64,000 nt of DNA from Gongronella butleri (lineage: Eukaryota > Mucoromycota > Mucoromycetes > Mucorales > Cunninghamellaceae): positions 310,001 to 374,000 of the forward strand of contig JAIWZP010000010.1 of NCBI GenBank assembly GCA_025201375.1. Reading direction: 5' to 3'. A program made the position numbers and the translations under genes. How positions within the stretch are numbered: position 1 is the stretch's first letter; the number at the start of each line of letters is the position of its first letter. Shown one piece after another: positions 13,957-21,560 of the stretch. Below the pieces are notes generated by a model. It worked only from the letters and a program-made list of their open reading frames with translations. It had not been told where the DNA came from and ran no database searches.

Positions 13957-14182
13957 AGCAATTGGTGAGGCGCCGGCACCGAGACGTTTTTCCCGTGCAA
14001 TTCGCTCGCGCTTGAAATACGGTATAATCTAAAATCACGAATTATCGCCAGCCACCTGGTCGATCCCACTCTTTTTTGGTGTTTTCTGTGGTTTTTCCCT
14101 GCATTGTTGTTTTTTGTGTGCAAGTTTCTCCAGTAATGCTCAAGCGAAGAAGCGCTGAGCTTACCGACTACTGTATGCAAGA

Positions 14183-14425
14183 GGAGGTCATTCAATTCCA
14201 CTTGCATGACATTCCCTTTGATAACTGTCTATTAATTTAGGTCGGCTTTATGTTCAAAGATCAATAAACGACGTATTAATCGACAACATCTAATAAAGCC
14301 AGGTCGTTCCGATTCTGCATAGCGCACAATTTCAACCACCCCTATTCGATAAGATTTTCGACGATTTATTAATCAACAATCGTTTATTAAATTGACAAAC
14401 GATTTAAAAAGGTTGAACGACCTCC
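14183..14425. repeat. left 243-bp terminal direct repeat
   Basis: Identical by eye to 18937-19179. It is itself bounded by a 13-bp inverted repeat GGAGGTC(A/G)TTCAA. Its interior has AT-rich palindromic pieces such as CGTATTAATCG and copies of CGTTTATTAA. The base triplets outside the outer ends match (AGA), but those at the inner ends do not, so the two repeats moved as one unit rather than as separate short elements. Confidence 0.9.
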
Positions 14426-14459
14426 TAGTTTTGGATAGAAGAGTGAATGAGTGTGAGAA

Positions 14460-14494
14460 GGGTGGTTGAAATCATGCGCTATGCAATTAGAACG
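14460..14494. repeat. inverted subterminal copy of terminal-repeat interior
   Basis: Just inside the left terminal repeat, GGGTGGTTGAAATCATGCGC and the following bases are a slightly diverged reverse complement of 14305-14341 within that repeat. Subterminal inverted copies of this sort often serve as transposase binding sites; that role is inferred. Confidence 0.6.
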
Positions 14495-14622
14495 AGAGAT
14501 ATCATGGGAAAGAGGAGATGCTTTTAAAAAAATTATCGGATTTAAATTTGATCATCGTCTTCCAGGATGGACAGGTGTATAGACAGGTTGATCTTTTAAA
14601 AGGAGGTTCTGTAAATAATTGA

Positions 14623-16350
14623 TTAAATAATTTTGCAATTGACTTTATGAACACCTTTGGCTCGAGAGTTACGAGTGACCTCAAAAGAGAAGCTGACTCC
14701 GGCATCAATTTGGGGTTCGATGGCTGCTTTCATTTCTTCGCCGCATCGAACATGCACACCACCTTCCAGAGTCAGATACAAATATGGCTTCTTTCTAAAG
14801 TCACCATATCCATACTCAATAACAGTGTATTGATGGTGTTCCACCAAGCAAGCGTAATCAGATTGATACATCGAATTGACAATCAATTCGAGTCTGGTTA
14901 GCAAACGACCTGATGATGATGATGGTAAAGCATCTATCATACTTGTCATTTCAAACGCGTCGGAAGCAAGAGAGGCCGCAGGAGAAGGTGACAATTGAAC
15001 AGGTGTCACCGTAGTAACTGAATCATACCTTTTTCGTTGCAATCGGTTGTCTGGCCATTCGATAAAGATATTCTTGTAATAGTCAAGTCCAATTTCTCGG
15101 AATTTGACATTTCGTTGAAGTCCGTTACGAGTTGGAAATAGACCATTCCTGATGCTAGGTACGAATGTCATGGCTCGGCAATCATCTGGTCTCTTATGAC
15201 ACGTTTGTTGAACAACTTGATATTTGTCATCACCCATTGACCTGATGACAAAGTAGTGTATTAAACGGTCATTAAAGCTAAAGTTGGCCAACAAGCATGG
15301 AATAATGAGGCTCTTGTCTTCTTCAGAAATACAGCCTTGAATCCTCTTTGTGCAAGAATTCCACCAGTGGCAATAAGCAAACATCTGCTTGTCTTCCAAG
15401 TACACAGCTACAACTTGCGTCAGCTTATCAACAATCATATGCCATTGATGATTCAAAGGCACTTTATATGTAGGACAAGAGGCAAGTTGTTGCTTGACAT
15501 GATCCATTTCCATGATATACATAGCTGATTGTCTAAGCGAACTACTGTAGACACTCAATTCAATACGAGTATATCCTTTGGACAGGTAATTCATCAGCTT
15601 GTCGACAAAAGCAGGATCAACAGGGTCAGCTACAAGATGGCTGAGACGAGAGCCAATCGATTCATACAGGTTTGCACTTTCAAGGACTTGAACAAACTTG
15701 TTATAAATTTTGACACGCAGCTTGCAATCTAATACACTCGCAGGAAGATAAAATGAGATACAATTATCACCAACAGAGTGTTGATCGTCGACAATTGCAG
15801 ATGAATCCACGATACCACGTGAAAGAAGATAATGCTCAATGATGCTACGAGTTGAAATGTATGCACAGTCACAGGTGATATCAATGCTTTGAAGAATGAC
15901 ATCGGTTAACCCAGCAAGCATGATATTGAGTTTAGCAAGTAGATTATCGATCATGAGATTATGGAACGAGATTTTGATGGCAATGTAGCCACTAATCCAT
16001 CCCGCCGGATCCATATTCTTCTTATCAGTATCCATTTGCCGCGACCTGTCATCAAAAGCTTGCCATTTGCCACTTCTAACAAACTTGATATCAAATTCAT
16101 GAACATCAAATGTATCATCAAGAGCTTTACGAATCTTCGACATGTGTTCAGATCGCCATGTATTCAAAATGCCAGCCATGTTGTAGATGCACCATATTAT
16201 AATGCTATCACAAAAAGGAACAGTAAAGTCACTCCAACCGCTTAAAGGTGCATAATCTTGAACATAATTAATTCCATATATATCATTCATAAGGTCAGAG
16301 TGACCATAAAAGAATGCTTTGAGTACATTTTCGTCGTCAACACCCGACAT
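14623..16350 (-). CDS. 575-aa element protein of unknown function
   Basis: Intronless reading frame of 575 aa starting MSGVDDENVLK, inside the 5-kb element. Composition is AT-driven (rich in I, K, D, S, Y), unlike the host genes. Visible blocks are NYVQDYAPLSGWSDFTVPFC near the N-terminus, LRVKIYNKFVQVLES near 200, then YTRIELSVYSS about 50 residues on, and a Ser/Pro-rich linker at about 430-460. The K-x-Y-x-K then R-x-E-x-S order is reminiscent of some replication-initiator proteins, but no HUH motif is present and I cannot claim homology. The predicted promoter motif lies 27 bp before the ATG. It is the largest gene of the element and appears intact. Confidence 0.75.
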   Translation of the reverse strand: MSGVDDENVLKAFFYGHSDLMNDIYGINYVQDYAPLSGWSDFTVPFCDSIIIWCIYNMAGILNTWRSEHMSKIRKALDDTFDVHEFDIKFVRSGKWQAFDDRSRQMDTDKKNMDPAGWISGYIAIKISFHNLMIDNLLAKLNIMLAGLTDVILQSIDITCDCAYISTRSIIEHYLLSRGIVDSSAIVDDQHSVGDNCISFYLPASVLDCKLRVKIYNKFVQVLESANLYESIGSRLSHLVADPVDPAFVDKLMNYLSKGYTRIELSVYSSSLRQSAMYIMEMDHVKQQLASCPTYKVPLNHQWHMIVDKLTQVVAVYLEDKQMFAYCHWWNSCTKRIQGCISEEDKSLIIPCLLANFSFNDRLIHYFVIRSMGDDKYQVVQQTCHKRPDDCRAMTFVPSIRNGLFPTRNGLQRNVKFREIGLDYYKNIFIEWPDNRLQRKRYDSVTTVTPVQLSPSPAASLASDAFEMTSMIDALPSSSSGRLLTRLELIVNSMYQSDYACLVEHHQYTVIEYGYGDFRKKPYLYLTLEGGVHVRCGEEMKAAIEPQIDAGVSFSFEVTRNSRAKGVHKVNCKII

Positions 16351-16376
16351 TTAGACGCTTCTCTTTATTTCAACTA

Positions 16377-16394
16377 TATTGTCTATTCACATAA
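16377..16394 (-). promoter_or_regulatory. element promoter motif, 575-aa gene
   Basis: On the + strand it reads TATTGTCTATTCACATAA, ending 27 bp before the start codon of the 575-aa gene. The same 18 bases, at the same distance, precede the zinc-knuckle gene. Next to the motif is GTCGGAGTTT, which occurs inverted beside the second copy. Confidence 0.65.
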
Positions 16395-16492
16395 GTGTCG
16401 GAGTTTAAAATCAAAAGAAACCCCCCTGTGTCAACCTTTATCCGTTTGATTAGGTAAAGGTTCTTGGGGGGTTCTTATATTTTTTTGGTTGG

Positions 16493-17350
16493 CTACAACC
16501 GTTTTTCTAGATCGTCGAGCATTGATATTGTTTCGTCTCGAAATTCTGTAATGTCAATTTCATTCAACTGATCATTATCCAGGTAGCCATTGAGAAGTGC
16601 CGCTCTAGATTTAAAGAGCTCACAAATCATCTGTTCGTCGCTTCTTTTGGATGATGCCATGTTATAAATGGCTATAAGTGTACGTGCCGTTTTTATTTTT
16701 GATTGCTTTTCTTGTTCGTCAACAACAGTAGAAGATGAAACAGCAGAAGGAAAAACAGAAGAAACAGCAGCAGGAGGAACAACAACAGAAGAAACAGCAG
16801 AAGAAACAGCAGAAGAAACAGCAGAAGAAACAGCAGTGTCGCGATGCAAATGGCAGTGACTTGCCTTTGTCATTTTTCGGCAACGTACGTTCTTCTTGGT
16901 CATGCTCCTGCATGTCTCAAGGGGCTCTCGAGGAACAACAAGATGTGGACTGTTGTTTACCGTCAAGATGCCTTTCTTGGAGCGCAGCATGTCATGGTGC
17001 ACACGACAAAAAGAGCCAAAGCATCTATTCATGCATTGAGTTTTCTTTTTGGTCAGCGCCTCGCATCGTTGTTTCGTTGCACATGCGTCATAAACATCAA
17101 TCATTCGTCGCAATTCCTTGCGAAAAAAGGCATGCTTATTATGAGCACTGTCACAGGAGGAACGGAATCTCTTGTACGCCAACTTATTAGAAGAAGACAT
17201 GCAAAAATTCAACATACTATCAAAGCATTCAAACAAGTCAACAGCAAAATCGTCATCTTCAGCGAAATCAAACACTTTTTTGGAGATTGTGTTGATGATT
17301 CTATATTGACCGCGTGTCAGAATGCTTACGTCGATATTCAAAACGTTCAT
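16493..17350 (-). CDS. double zinc-knuckle protein of the 5-kb element
   Basis: Intronless, 285 aa, starting MNVLNIDVSIL. Two copies of a C-x3-TKK-x3-C-x(7-8)-C-x2-H knuckle are present: CEALTKKKTQCMNRCFGSFC followed by RVHH, and CRSMTKKNVRCRKMTKASHC followed by HLH. This layout is common in small proteins of giant DNA viruses and phages, and occurs scattered in mobile DNA. A low-complexity AVSS repeat follows, encoded by 12-bp tandem units near 16780-16835, and then a charged C-terminal helix region. Nucleic-acid binding is likely from the motif; any specific role is unknown. The shared motif at 17377-17394 lies 27 bp upstream of the ATG. Confidence 0.8.
   Translation of the reverse strand: MNVLNIDVSILTRGQYRIINTISKKVFDFAEDDDFAVDLFECFDSMLNFCMSSSNKLAYKRFRSSCDSAHNKHAFFRKELRRMIDVYDACATKQRCEALTKKKTQCMNRCFGSFCRVHHDMLRSKKGILTVNNSPHLVVPREPLETCRSMTKKNVRCRKMTKASHCHLHRDTAVSSAVSSAVSSAVSSVVVPPAAVSSVFPSAVSSSTVVDEQEKQSKIKTARTLIAIYNMASSKRSDEQMICELFKSRAALLNGYLDNDQLNEIDITEFRDETISMLDDLEKRL
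16744..16835. repeat. 12-bp tandem repeat in zinc-knuckle gene
   Basis: Units of GAAACAGCAGAA recur, perfect over the last four and degenerate before that. They encode the repeating Ala-Val-Ser-Ser tract on the minus strand. The length is likely to vary between copies of the element. Confidence 0.75.
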
Positions 17351-17376
17351 CTTTGTCGTCGGTCTTTGACCCCACC

Positions 17377-17394
17377 TATTGTCTATTCACATAA
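17377..17394 (-). promoter_or_regulatory. element promoter motif, zinc-knuckle gene
   Basis: TATTGTCTATTCACATAA, identical to 16377-16394, again ends 27 bp before the ATG (17350). It is followed by AAACTCCGACA, the inverse of a block beside the first copy. Confidence 0.65.
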
Positions 17395-17424
17395 ATTCAA
17401 ACTCCGACATGTTTTTAAACGATG

Positions 17425-18855
17425 TTATTGAATGTTGGACACGTATCTTTCAATCATCGGACCATCATCAAAAGCATCTTTTTCAATCCATGTATTATGA
17501 CGATTATCGTATCCTTTCCATTTAACCTTGAACTCCATAACACCATGAGGATTGATTCTATGTGTAATTATATTTTCAACTTCATGATGCATCTCTGTAT
17601 CAGTATCATCCGGTTGTTGCATAATTTCAATATCATTATTATCAGTTGCATCATCTTCATTCAAGAAGATCAAGGCTAAGCATCTGTTGCTGAATAAGCT
17701 CCATAGCACCTTTCTGATTACGACGATCTGCAATACTCAAAACATCGACAGCATCATATACAGAACTACCAAGTGGAGAGCCGGTATAGTAATCAAAGCA
17801 GGGTTGCATCCAATATGCATGATGTTCAGCATGATGGATACCTACCTTGTTAACGAAGTTCTTAATATTGCTCAACACACATGCCAGCTTTAATTGCAAT
17901 GAAAATATATCGCTATCGGCCACGCGAATGACAGACTGGCCATTAAAACGATGAAAGAGATGTCCAATTTCACCAAAACGAGATTCAATTGCAGATCTAA
18001 AACCACCATGAAGCTGATTATATAATGTCTCTTCATCGCTAAGATTAACGCCTTTCGATTTTCTAATGGGAGTCACAAAGCTACCTGATTGAAGATGACG
18101 ATTTAATTGCAACACACGATCGATAAACAAGGTGTACCCACCGTCAACAGCAACAACATCATAGCGGCTGATCTTACCTGCAAGATTCAAAGATACCAGC
18201 ATCGAGCCGTCGTTATTTATTCCACATGGATCTGCTTTTGATAAAAATATAATCATGCCATTGATGTCCATGGCTACTTGAGTGCGAAGGCCAGACTTCT
18301 TTAGTTTATATGAATAGTACTCTGATCTGTCAGATGCGTTAATATATGTCACTCGCGAGTCATGGCCATCGAGCATCATTGTGACATGCTTAAATTCATT
18401 AGGATTCATTAAATTGGCACACATCACTCTGATCTTTATATTGGAAAACATCTTGGCAAGGCATTCATCTAGCTTACTTTCTAACCACTCTTTTTGCTTC
18501 GAATAAAATGCAACATAGACCGAATTGAAAGAACTTATAGGTATAAACTGCCCCATTTGAGCCATTGAGGCGCCAGTCAGCAAGTGGTATAAAATCAGTA
18601 AGCCTTTTTCCACACCACGGTAAGGACCCGGAAAGTCCTTGTTGGCAAACAAAATGGACAAGAAAAAGAACACTGGTATGTACCCCAAATGTTGAAAGAC
18701 ATGGCTCTTGACATTCTCAATGCCGGGTATGTCTTTAATCTCTGTACGATGACGCTTTTCTGATCTTTTTTTACAGTAGGCCAATCTTCACGCAGGAACG
18801 CCCAATGAACGCTTCCAAGCTGATGGAATAATGTCATAATATCTTCGTTGAACAT
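17425..18855 (-). pseudogene. DDE (Harbinger/IS5-like) transposase with C-terminal chromodomain, frame-broken
   Basis: The only ATG start is 18855 (MFNEDIMTLFHQLG). That frame runs to REDWPTVKK and must change to the frame covering 18784-17657. The second frame holds DDE-type boxes: MMLDGHDSR, VVAVDGGYTLF and FRSAIESRFGEIGHLFHRF, preceded by a TP-R-KSKG-LS-E pattern as in DDE_Tnp_4. The frame change falls at a TACTGTA heptamer (18772-18778, + strand TACAGTA); collapsing it to TA puts both frames in register. At the 3' end the frame meets TGA after SLDLLE. The overlapping +1 frame encodes a chromodomain (EFKVKWKGYDNRHNTWIEKD) ending at 17425, without its own ATG. A 34-nt GT-AG intron or a +1 shift would join them. 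Confidence 0.75.
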
Positions 18856-18901
18856 GGTAATTTCTAATAAACTATCTTTTGATTTAGTTTTCTTATTAAT
18901 A

Positions 18902-18914
18902 CCTCTTCACATAA
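18902..18914 (-). promoter_or_regulatory. weaker copy of element promoter motif, transposase gene
   Basis: CCTCTTCACATAA resembles the core of the two perfect motifs (CTATTCACATAA). It lies about 47 bp before the transposase ATG, between that ATG and the right terminal repeat. Confidence 0.45.
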
Positions 18915-18936
18915 ATCAAAGATCTCGAATCATCTA

Positions 18937-19179
18937 GGAGGTCATTCAATTCCACTTGCATGACATTCCCTTTGATAACTGTCTATTAATTTAGGTCGGC
19001 TTTATGTTCAAAGATCAATAAACGACGTATTAATCGACAACATCTAATAAAGCCAGGTCGTTCCGATTCTGCATAGCGCACAATTTCAACCACCCCTATT
19101 CGATAAGATTTTCGACGATTTATTAATCAACAATCGTTTATTAAATTGACAAACGATTTAAAAAGGTTGAACGACCTCC
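18937..19179. repeat. right 243-bp terminal direct repeat
   Basis: Same orientation and sequence as the left copy. It is followed by the AGA duplication at 19180-19182 and then by the interrupted recombinase coding sequence. Confidence 0.9.
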
Positions 19180-19856
19180 AGAGAGGGCTGCAGGTGCCAC
19201 ATGGGAAACATGGTGCTTTCATCGCTTCATCGACCCCGATTGTCCCTCGGCTGCTGACATCATCCTCGCCCACACCACCGATGTGTCTGCTACATGGCAA
19301 GAAAACTCCAAGCGCACTTTCCTCGGCAATGTCACGCGCTTGCTCACCTTTGAGCGCCGATGCGCCATCCAATCGCACCCGGATTACATCCGTTTCCATC
19401 GTTTATCCAAGGCCGGCGAAATCCACCAGCCGGTGCGCAATGGCACCTACGACTTGTCGCCCGCTTTCGCCTACATTCGCACCCTCGGCGAAAACGACGT
19501 GCTCACCAACAAGCAAGGAACTCGCGTGCAAAACCGCCTTTCTCCTCGGTTTACAGTATCCGGCTTTTACCGGTCTACGTAGTGACTTGGCTCGCATTAT
19601 TGACCTCGCCAATTTCTCCTTTGACCGTGTTGCACTCGATTCCGACCGCATCATCCTTGCTTGTGTCGCCCCCAAGGAGATGCCCAGTGGTCGACATTAC
19701 ACGAGGTCGACGCATTTCACCAAGCACGCGTCGGACCCGCTTCTTTGTCCCGTACGCGCGTTTTACGCATACGTCGCTCGCTTCGCCTCCTCGTCTTTTT
19801 CCACCGCGCCCCATCCATCCATGTCTGGCACCACCATTGTCCCTTTGTTCGCCAAT

Positions 19857-20753: not shown

Positions 20754-21560
20754 TAGCTATAATTTTGCGTGGTGGTAAAGTATTTGGCTGGCAAGACGTT
20801 TTAATAATCTCTTGCTAGACGCCCCGAAATTGCTCTTAGAGGCTACAAAGCGTCGCCCCTGGATGTAAAATTTGATTTGGAATCGAATGGTGTTACTTTC
20901 GAGCCATGCTCTCTTAGTAAAAACACGAAAAATCAGGCATTTACTGCCAAAAATCAAAATCGGGCTGAAATGTCGTAAATTGCGATTATCTCGAAATTTC
21001 AGTAAGTTAACGGACATCGTGTGAGAACTTTATTCGATTCTAAATTAAATTTTACATTGGACTCGTGTGGCAAAATGGAGGTCGGTCATAATTGGTTGCC
21101 TGTGCTTAGTATGATAGATCAACATTTATTTTATAGGACATCTATGCCTTTAAAGTCTTTTTAATTGCACTGAACATTGTCTCCCGGGAAGACACTGTGG
21201 CCTCATACCCGTGTCTTTGCTTCGGTCCCGATTACGTAATCAATTGGTTTGCAAATGATTATCTAGACGCGTTTTAAACAATTAGACAAATTTTGAACAA
21301 AAAGACTTGCCCGATCGCCAATAGCGATTCAAGCAAGTTTTGAGGTACTTTCATTAGAGCAAACTGCAGCATTTGAGCCAGATGTTCTCCAAGTACTCAA
21401 AAACCTGCAATTGGACATGTAATTTAAACACCGCCAGGAGATTCTACGCCCTTGAAAACATATAAAACGCCATTTTCAGCTTCATCATTATTGACCAAAC
21501 CCTGAGTATAAGTGGGGTCGGGGTGACGAATTCTAACTTTACCACGCAAAATTCTAGCTA
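20754..21560. mobile_element. 807-bp non-autonomous inverted-repeat element
   Basis: The left end TAGCTATAATTTTGCGTGG and the right end (inverse TAGCTAGAATTTTGCGTGG) match over about 28 bp, apart from one base and a GGT triplet gain. Direct copies of GTCTCCAGTC lie just outside both ends (20741-20750 and 21564-21573), although these may belong to the flanking recombinase copies. No coding capacity is visible. Confidence 0.6.

Follow-up and report, generated by a model that had tools for sequence, protein, structure and literature searches.

A stretch of 64,000 nucleotides of the Gongronella butleri genome (contig JAIWZP010000010.1, positions 310,001 to 374,000; termed the window below) carries at 14183-19179 one member of an old DDE transposon family found in Mucoromycota-type fungi. 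The family is almost certainly built on the plan TDR-INT-TDR, in which an internal part (INT) stands between two long terminal direct repeats (TDRs), each TDR having both inverted ends. Beside the transposase these elements encode a protein, ORF2, with most of the catalytic residues of Rep_trans replication initiators on a predicted TBP-like fold.

The two TDRs of the window element (14183-14425 and 18937-19179) were identical at 243/243 positions; their ends, GGAGGTCATTCAA and TTGAACGACCTCC, form an inverted repeat of 13 bp that is mismatched at one position, and the TDR contains no gene of 80 aa or more. The outer flanks are AGA/AGA, whereas the inner flanks, TAG and CTA, do not match; the target duplication surrounds the whole unit only, and neither 243-bp copy has a matching pair of its own. 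A sequence-only reading of this DNA had described the identical repeats with 13-bp inverted ends, the AGA duplication, and three minus-strand genes, two of them intronless. All of this was borne out, the genes lying where claimed and both ORF2 and the middle gene running uninterrupted in one frame. Its proposal of a distinct, composite-like DDE element is likewise supported, and the plan is family-wide (12 elements with two TDRs each).

Full elements and solo repeats in the genome

The genome searched comprises 33 Mb in 110 contigs, and all counts from these searches are lower bounds. Matches were found at no fewer than 24 places for the transposase core and at least 20 for ORF2, fragments included; where both were present they were mostly adjacent, in divergent or tandem order. 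When each of 17 transposase/ORF2 regions was compared with itself, direct repeats of 221-246 bp were found at both ends of 11; in a twelfth, C20, a large insertion divides the element, but both repeats and TAG/TAG flanks are retained. The TDR-INT-TDR arrangement exceeds chance, with 12 elements in this genome having a TDR at both ends and exact outer 3-bp duplications in 11 of them (CAA, TTT, TTT, TAA, TAT, ATA, CTA, TAG, TGT, TTT and AGA). The outer flanks of C50 are unlike (ATT/AAT), and C105 has one longer and one shortened repeat, its right TDR ending after 154 bp. Inner flanks were conserved within a subfamily. Transposase/ORF2 places with unresolved ends were C78 (two), C69, C18, C54, C34 and C47.

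Each repeat has GGAGGTC at one end and a C-rich near-complement at the other, because of which the repeat looks like a small transposon in itself. The 243-bp repeat also occurs alone, like solo long terminal repeats (LTRs). Searching with four repeat types we counted 25 solos (5 for the window type; 7, 7 and 6 for the other three), and 23 of the 25 had their own matching 3-bp duplication (4, 6, 7 and 6 by type); L077 and L078, both among the 25, are one site in an inverted duplication. From the 27 places of one TDR search we excluded 12 whose identity was no higher than 79%; they represent one or more further subfamilies, with ends that were not resolved. A second search gave 11 places, from which one 59-bp piece was excluded. 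No multimers were seen among the TDR places listed. Solos may stem from TDR-TDR recombination or from transposition of a TDR alone, origins that are not separable because both routes leave a duplication. A solo TDR of the C45-type subfamily, with an AAT/AAT duplication, lies in the window itself (21077-21319), 1.9 kb from the element.

TDRs of different subfamilies aligned poorly. Of the 11 elements measured, 7 had two identical TDRs, 3 had TDRs that differed by a single base, and in 1 the difference was a 3-bp indel. Variants diagnostic of an element were present in both of its TDRs, namely an insertion of CAC (3 bp) in C100b, a site with A or C that divides C17/C61 from C25/C100a, and a site with G or C that divides C29 from C52. 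Because an element's variants occur in both its repeats, either both derive from a single repeat or conversion keeps the TDRs alike, and the data fit either. The two TDRs of C50 differ, one having the C form and the other the A form, which, together with the unlike flanks, is as expected of a recombinant between two elements; C50 (G000:C50:232502-237833) sits between 212-bp inverted repeats that are 94% identical. A test for hairpins in TDR DNA gave z values of -0.6 to -3.2 (8 strands). Just inside the left TDR of the window element, 14460-14485 is an inverted copy (92%) of TDR segment 14316-14341, a feature not seen in the 4 other elements compared.

ORF2 resembles Rep_trans initiators

The ORF2 domain is predicted to adopt a TBP-like fold, as in the Rep_trans catalytic domain, and is followed by about 280 further residues. 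The Rep_trans catalytic set was retained nearly throughout the ORF2 relatives: Y216 and R262 in 78/78, D157 and E264 in 77/78. From its position, D48 would be the partner of D46; R140 and A144 were not conserved. On this modelled fold and residue set ORF2 is very probably a Rep_trans-type initiator, for which nicking and the start of rolling-circle replication are the predicted function.

Several searches gave this assignment no further support. PF02486 matched nothing in the genome, ORF2 included. When the whole ORF2 model was used in a structure search, TBPs were the top matches and no Rep_trans structure stood among the best 50; in a viral structure library (Foldseek), an Inoviridae REP was found at rank 24 (E 0.011), and none of the 5 matches at E of 0.001 or less was named as Rep. 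Alignment of ORF2 with five Rep_trans proteins by hhalign was no better than controls, and the controls failed likewise. The profile phrog_702 matched neither this genome nor the control genomes, and known Rep_trans proteins match phrog_453, not phrog_702. Pfam gave no consistent family over 78 ORF2 members, a PDB sequence search with two ORF2 profiles gave no match, and a scan of prokaryote genomes with ORF2 gave no relatives. Since there was no PF02486 or Rep_trans profile match by sequence, ORF2 is called Rep_trans-like, a likeness of the predicted structure, and not a member. Neither Myb/SANT (in the 78-member scan, among the first 25 of 40 families listed) nor a His-Me finger nuclease was matched by Pfam at E 1 in ORF2 or in the middle gene.

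Transposase, middle gene and shared upstream motif

The features of the window element are collected in Table 1. The transposase matched PF13359 (DDE_Tnp_4) above the curated cut-off, and no other Pfam family exceeded its cut-off. The window copy matched its relatives as three pieces in two frames (N-terminal part 18855-18760, DDE core 18766-17666, chromodomain 17721-17428); the two frame changes may be introns, mutations or assembly error, and because of them this copy may be inactive.

Table 1. Layout of the element, by window position (-, minus strand).
Feature	Position	Strand	Basis
Left 3-bp target duplication, AGA	14180..14182		flank comparison
Left TDR, GGAGGTC-type inverted ends at its borders	14183..14425	-	self-comparison
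ORF2, 575 aa, Rep_trans-like protein with predicted TBP fold	14623..16350	-	ORF, conserved residues and predicted fold
Upstream motif TTATGTGAATAG ahead of ORF2	16383..16394	-	motif search
Middle gene, 285 aa, two TKK cysteine knuckles	16493..17350	-	ORF
Upstream motif ahead of middle gene	17383..17394	-	motif search
Transposase chromodomain reading frame	17425..17733	-	Pfam and relatives
Transposase DDE core reading frame (PF13359, E 5.8e-10)	17657..18784	-	Pfam and relatives
Transposase N-terminal piece, frame differs from core	18760..18855	-	relatives
Upstream motif, one mismatch, ahead of transposase	18903..18914	-	motif search
Right TDR, same sequence as left TDR	18937..19179	-	self-comparison
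Right 3-bp target duplication, AGA	19180..19182		flank comparison

The motif TTATGTGAATAG, or a near form, was found upstream of ORF2 in 6/6 elements tested; 4 had no more than one mismatch, whereas C17 had two and C29 three. Ahead of the transposase it was found with at most one mismatch in 5/8, two of these being a site shared with a divergent ORF2; the remaining three had two mismatches (C17), three on the other strand (C105), or no motif found (C18). In the window, 5 sites with at most one mismatch were seen against 0.25 expected, and 3 of the 5 precede the three genes, with a perfect motif ahead of the middle gene. With the shared motif ahead of it, the middle gene is wired like an element gene. 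No second copy of this gene was found in the genome, and the sole relative found was a metagenome protein (61% identity) whose source contig has a listed length of 3933, the same figure as for the ORF2 relative P0011; we infer that the two are on one contig.

In comparisons between subfamilies, the transposase gave dN/dS (nonsynonymous over synonymous change) values of 0.07-0.13 in 3 pairs, and ORF2 gave 0.11-0.14 in 4 pairs, one of them partial; most pairs were near saturation at synonymous sites. Both proteins are under purifying selection. The C17 transposase is much closer to the C45/C59 group (87% identical, dS 0.53) than is the C17 ORF2 (64% identical, dS 2.45), which suggests that modules have been exchanged between subfamilies. 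Elsewhere, at G000:C18:525693-527069, an open transposase-plus-chromodomain frame (53% identical) showed no TDR, inverted end or ORF2 within 1.5 kb on either side, and is possibly a domesticated transposase.

Ten near-identical copies, falling into three groups, showed 26 indels, and 13 of these were 3 bp long, every one a tandem duplication (the CAC event in both repeats of C100b being counted twice). The remaining lengths were 1 bp (seven), 5 bp (four), and 2 bp and 9 bp (one each). Indels of 3 bp are favoured in coding sequence, although they were also found in the non-coding repeats. The 3-bp indels resemble the scars left when an element with 3-bp duplications excises, so cut-and-paste is probably also ongoing, by this family or another. 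The 5-bp insertions, in C17, C25, C61 and C100b, have TA on both sides and resemble Tc1/mariner excision scars.

Relatives outside the genome

Named relatives of the element proteins (organism names from 88 proteins in one search and from the best 120 of 172 in another) came from Mortierella and allies, Linnemannia, Apophysomyces, Rhizomucor, Cunninghamella and Lichtheimia. In four metagenome pairs (P0002/P0091, P0003/P0089, P0006/P0094 and P0008/P0093), relatives of ORF2 and of the transposase came from contigs of equal listed size, 3.6-3.7 kb, or about one element.

How the element may copy and move

We propose that a circle of INT plus one TDR would be released by TDR-TDR recombination, or by ORF2 nicking and rejoining, with a solo TDR left behind; ORF2 would nick the TDR of the circle and copy the circle by rolling circle; and the transposase would join the ends of the circle's TDR to a target with a 3-bp stagger, the TDR being copied in this cointegrate-like step. 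In a manner comparable to IS26 translocatable units, every new insertion would thereby receive a pair of identical TDRs and a 3-bp duplication; the transposase may in addition cut and paste whole elements or lone TDRs. Such a model would explain the identical TDRs, the solos, the presence of both inverted ends on each TDR, and the retention of a replication-type protein. Taken jointly, the plan, the identity of ORF2 and its participation in copying or processing TDRs are an account that we favour with some reserve. The circle step falls just short of an even prospect. That the transposon lives as a rolling-circle plasmid between jumps, its Rep_trans-like initiator copying the single-TDR circle and its DDE transposase doubling the TDR, is offered tentatively.

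The main rival, which has a real but minor share of the probability, is plain cut-and-paste on the outermost inverted ends, with the TDRs as doubled ends kept alike by gene conversion and ORF2 as a TBP-fold DNA-binding helper in the position that a Myb/SANT partner has in other Harbinger-type elements. Gene conversion would also yield concerted TDRs, the TBP-like fold binds DNA in other proteins, TBPs led the matches to the whole ORF2 model, and half of the indels are 3-bp tandem-duplication scars; but these scars may stem from another 3-bp element, and a mere binder would have no need of the Rep catalytic set that 77-78 of 78 relatives keep. Alternatively the transposase moves only a lone TDR, and an INT circle enters a resident solo TDR by homologous recombination, one of the models given for KolobokP in the portions of PMC9587614 drawn on here. 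This would also yield exact outer duplications, and solos (25 counted) do outnumber full elements (12); however, solos and elements share no sites within one genome, and TDR identity within an element would require a resident solo of the same sequence. We consider this route improbable.

The sequence-only reading had held that solo 243-bp units, each with its own duplication, would point to two independent insertions around unrelated DNA. Such solos exist (4 of the 5 of window type have the duplication), yet the two-insertion reading still fails, because the window copies share only the outer AGA pair, with inner flanks that differ from it, and the same plan, enclosing related genes, recurs in 11 other elements; we give it practically no credence. 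It had also suggested a virus- or virophage-derived unit and had noted that TKK cysteine knuckles of this type are common in giant viruses. The two knuckles in the middle gene are real, and the likeness of ORF2 to a replication initiator and the Inoviridae REP match could be read the same way; but pattern-based scans of 2.9 million viral contigs gave no relatives of ORF2 or the transposase, none of the three genes had a Pfam match to a capsid or packaging domain, the sole relative found of the knuckle gene is the metagenome protein, and the named relatives are Mucoromycota- and Mortierella-type fungi, all of which makes a viral origin highly improbable. An LTR retrotransposon was rejected, as Pfam matched no reverse transcriptase in the four reading frames scanned.

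Comparison with known systems

Rep_trans (pT181-type) proteins and the archaeal Rep-Arvir, in the parts of PMC4797284 and PMC13107129 consulted, share with ORF2 a TBP-like fold, a catalytic tyrosine in a YNK context, and acidic residues and an R-x-E motif in the same order; for Rep-Arvir, too, the likeness is in structure rather than sequence. ORF2 differs in being a gene of a fungal DDE transposon, in its additional residues after the catalytic domain, and in having no PF02486 match. According to the same parts of PMC13107129, Rep_trans enzymes seem to be confined to bacteria, apart from a distant branch in archaea, and in the literature examined we found no description of a Rep_trans-like initiator from eukaryotes; a plasmid-type replication initiator, with most catalytic residues kept, inside a fungal transposon would, if confirmed, be unexpected in a fungus.

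PIF/Harbinger elements (PHIS), as described in the sections of PMC12730594 used, likewise have a DDE_Tnp_4 transposase, 3-bp target duplications and a second encoded protein, the Myb/SANT partner being a feature of the Nuwa group; the elements described here differ in their long terminal direct repeats, their chromodomain and a partner without a Myb/SANT match. No Harbinger-type element with the TDR plan was found in the open-access literature, Repbase reports and subscription journals being outside the search. For IS26 translocatable units (discussed in PMC9587614), a circle with one terminal unit would likewise insert with two direct copies of that unit; the IS26 transposase gene is inside the repeated unit, whereas here the repeat is non-coding.

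Only KolobokP (Kojima and Bao 2022, PMC9587614, from the portions seen) was found in that literature with the TDR plan, and it was described there as unlike any other DNA transposon. It is alike in having an INT between long terminal direct repeats with short inverted ends on each, solo repeats with target duplications, and an internal DDD/E transposase alongside a further protein with a known or possible action on DNA. KolobokP belongs to the Kolobok superfamily, is found in animals, has repeats of about 450 or 660 bp and a His-Me finger nuclease, and commonly forms multimers; the present family is fungal, with repeats of 221-246 bp, a chromodomain-bearing transposase and a Rep_trans-like partner, and its transposase is of the PF13359 family, not Kolobok-type. 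If the element does live as a plasmid between jumps, it would be an LTR-like element without reverse transcription, and the family makes directly testable how such elements hold two identical ends and copy themselves. With this family, DNA transposons have a second case of an LTR-like plan, outside the superfamily and the kingdom of KolobokP, and its recurrence suggests a solution that can be reached repeatedly.

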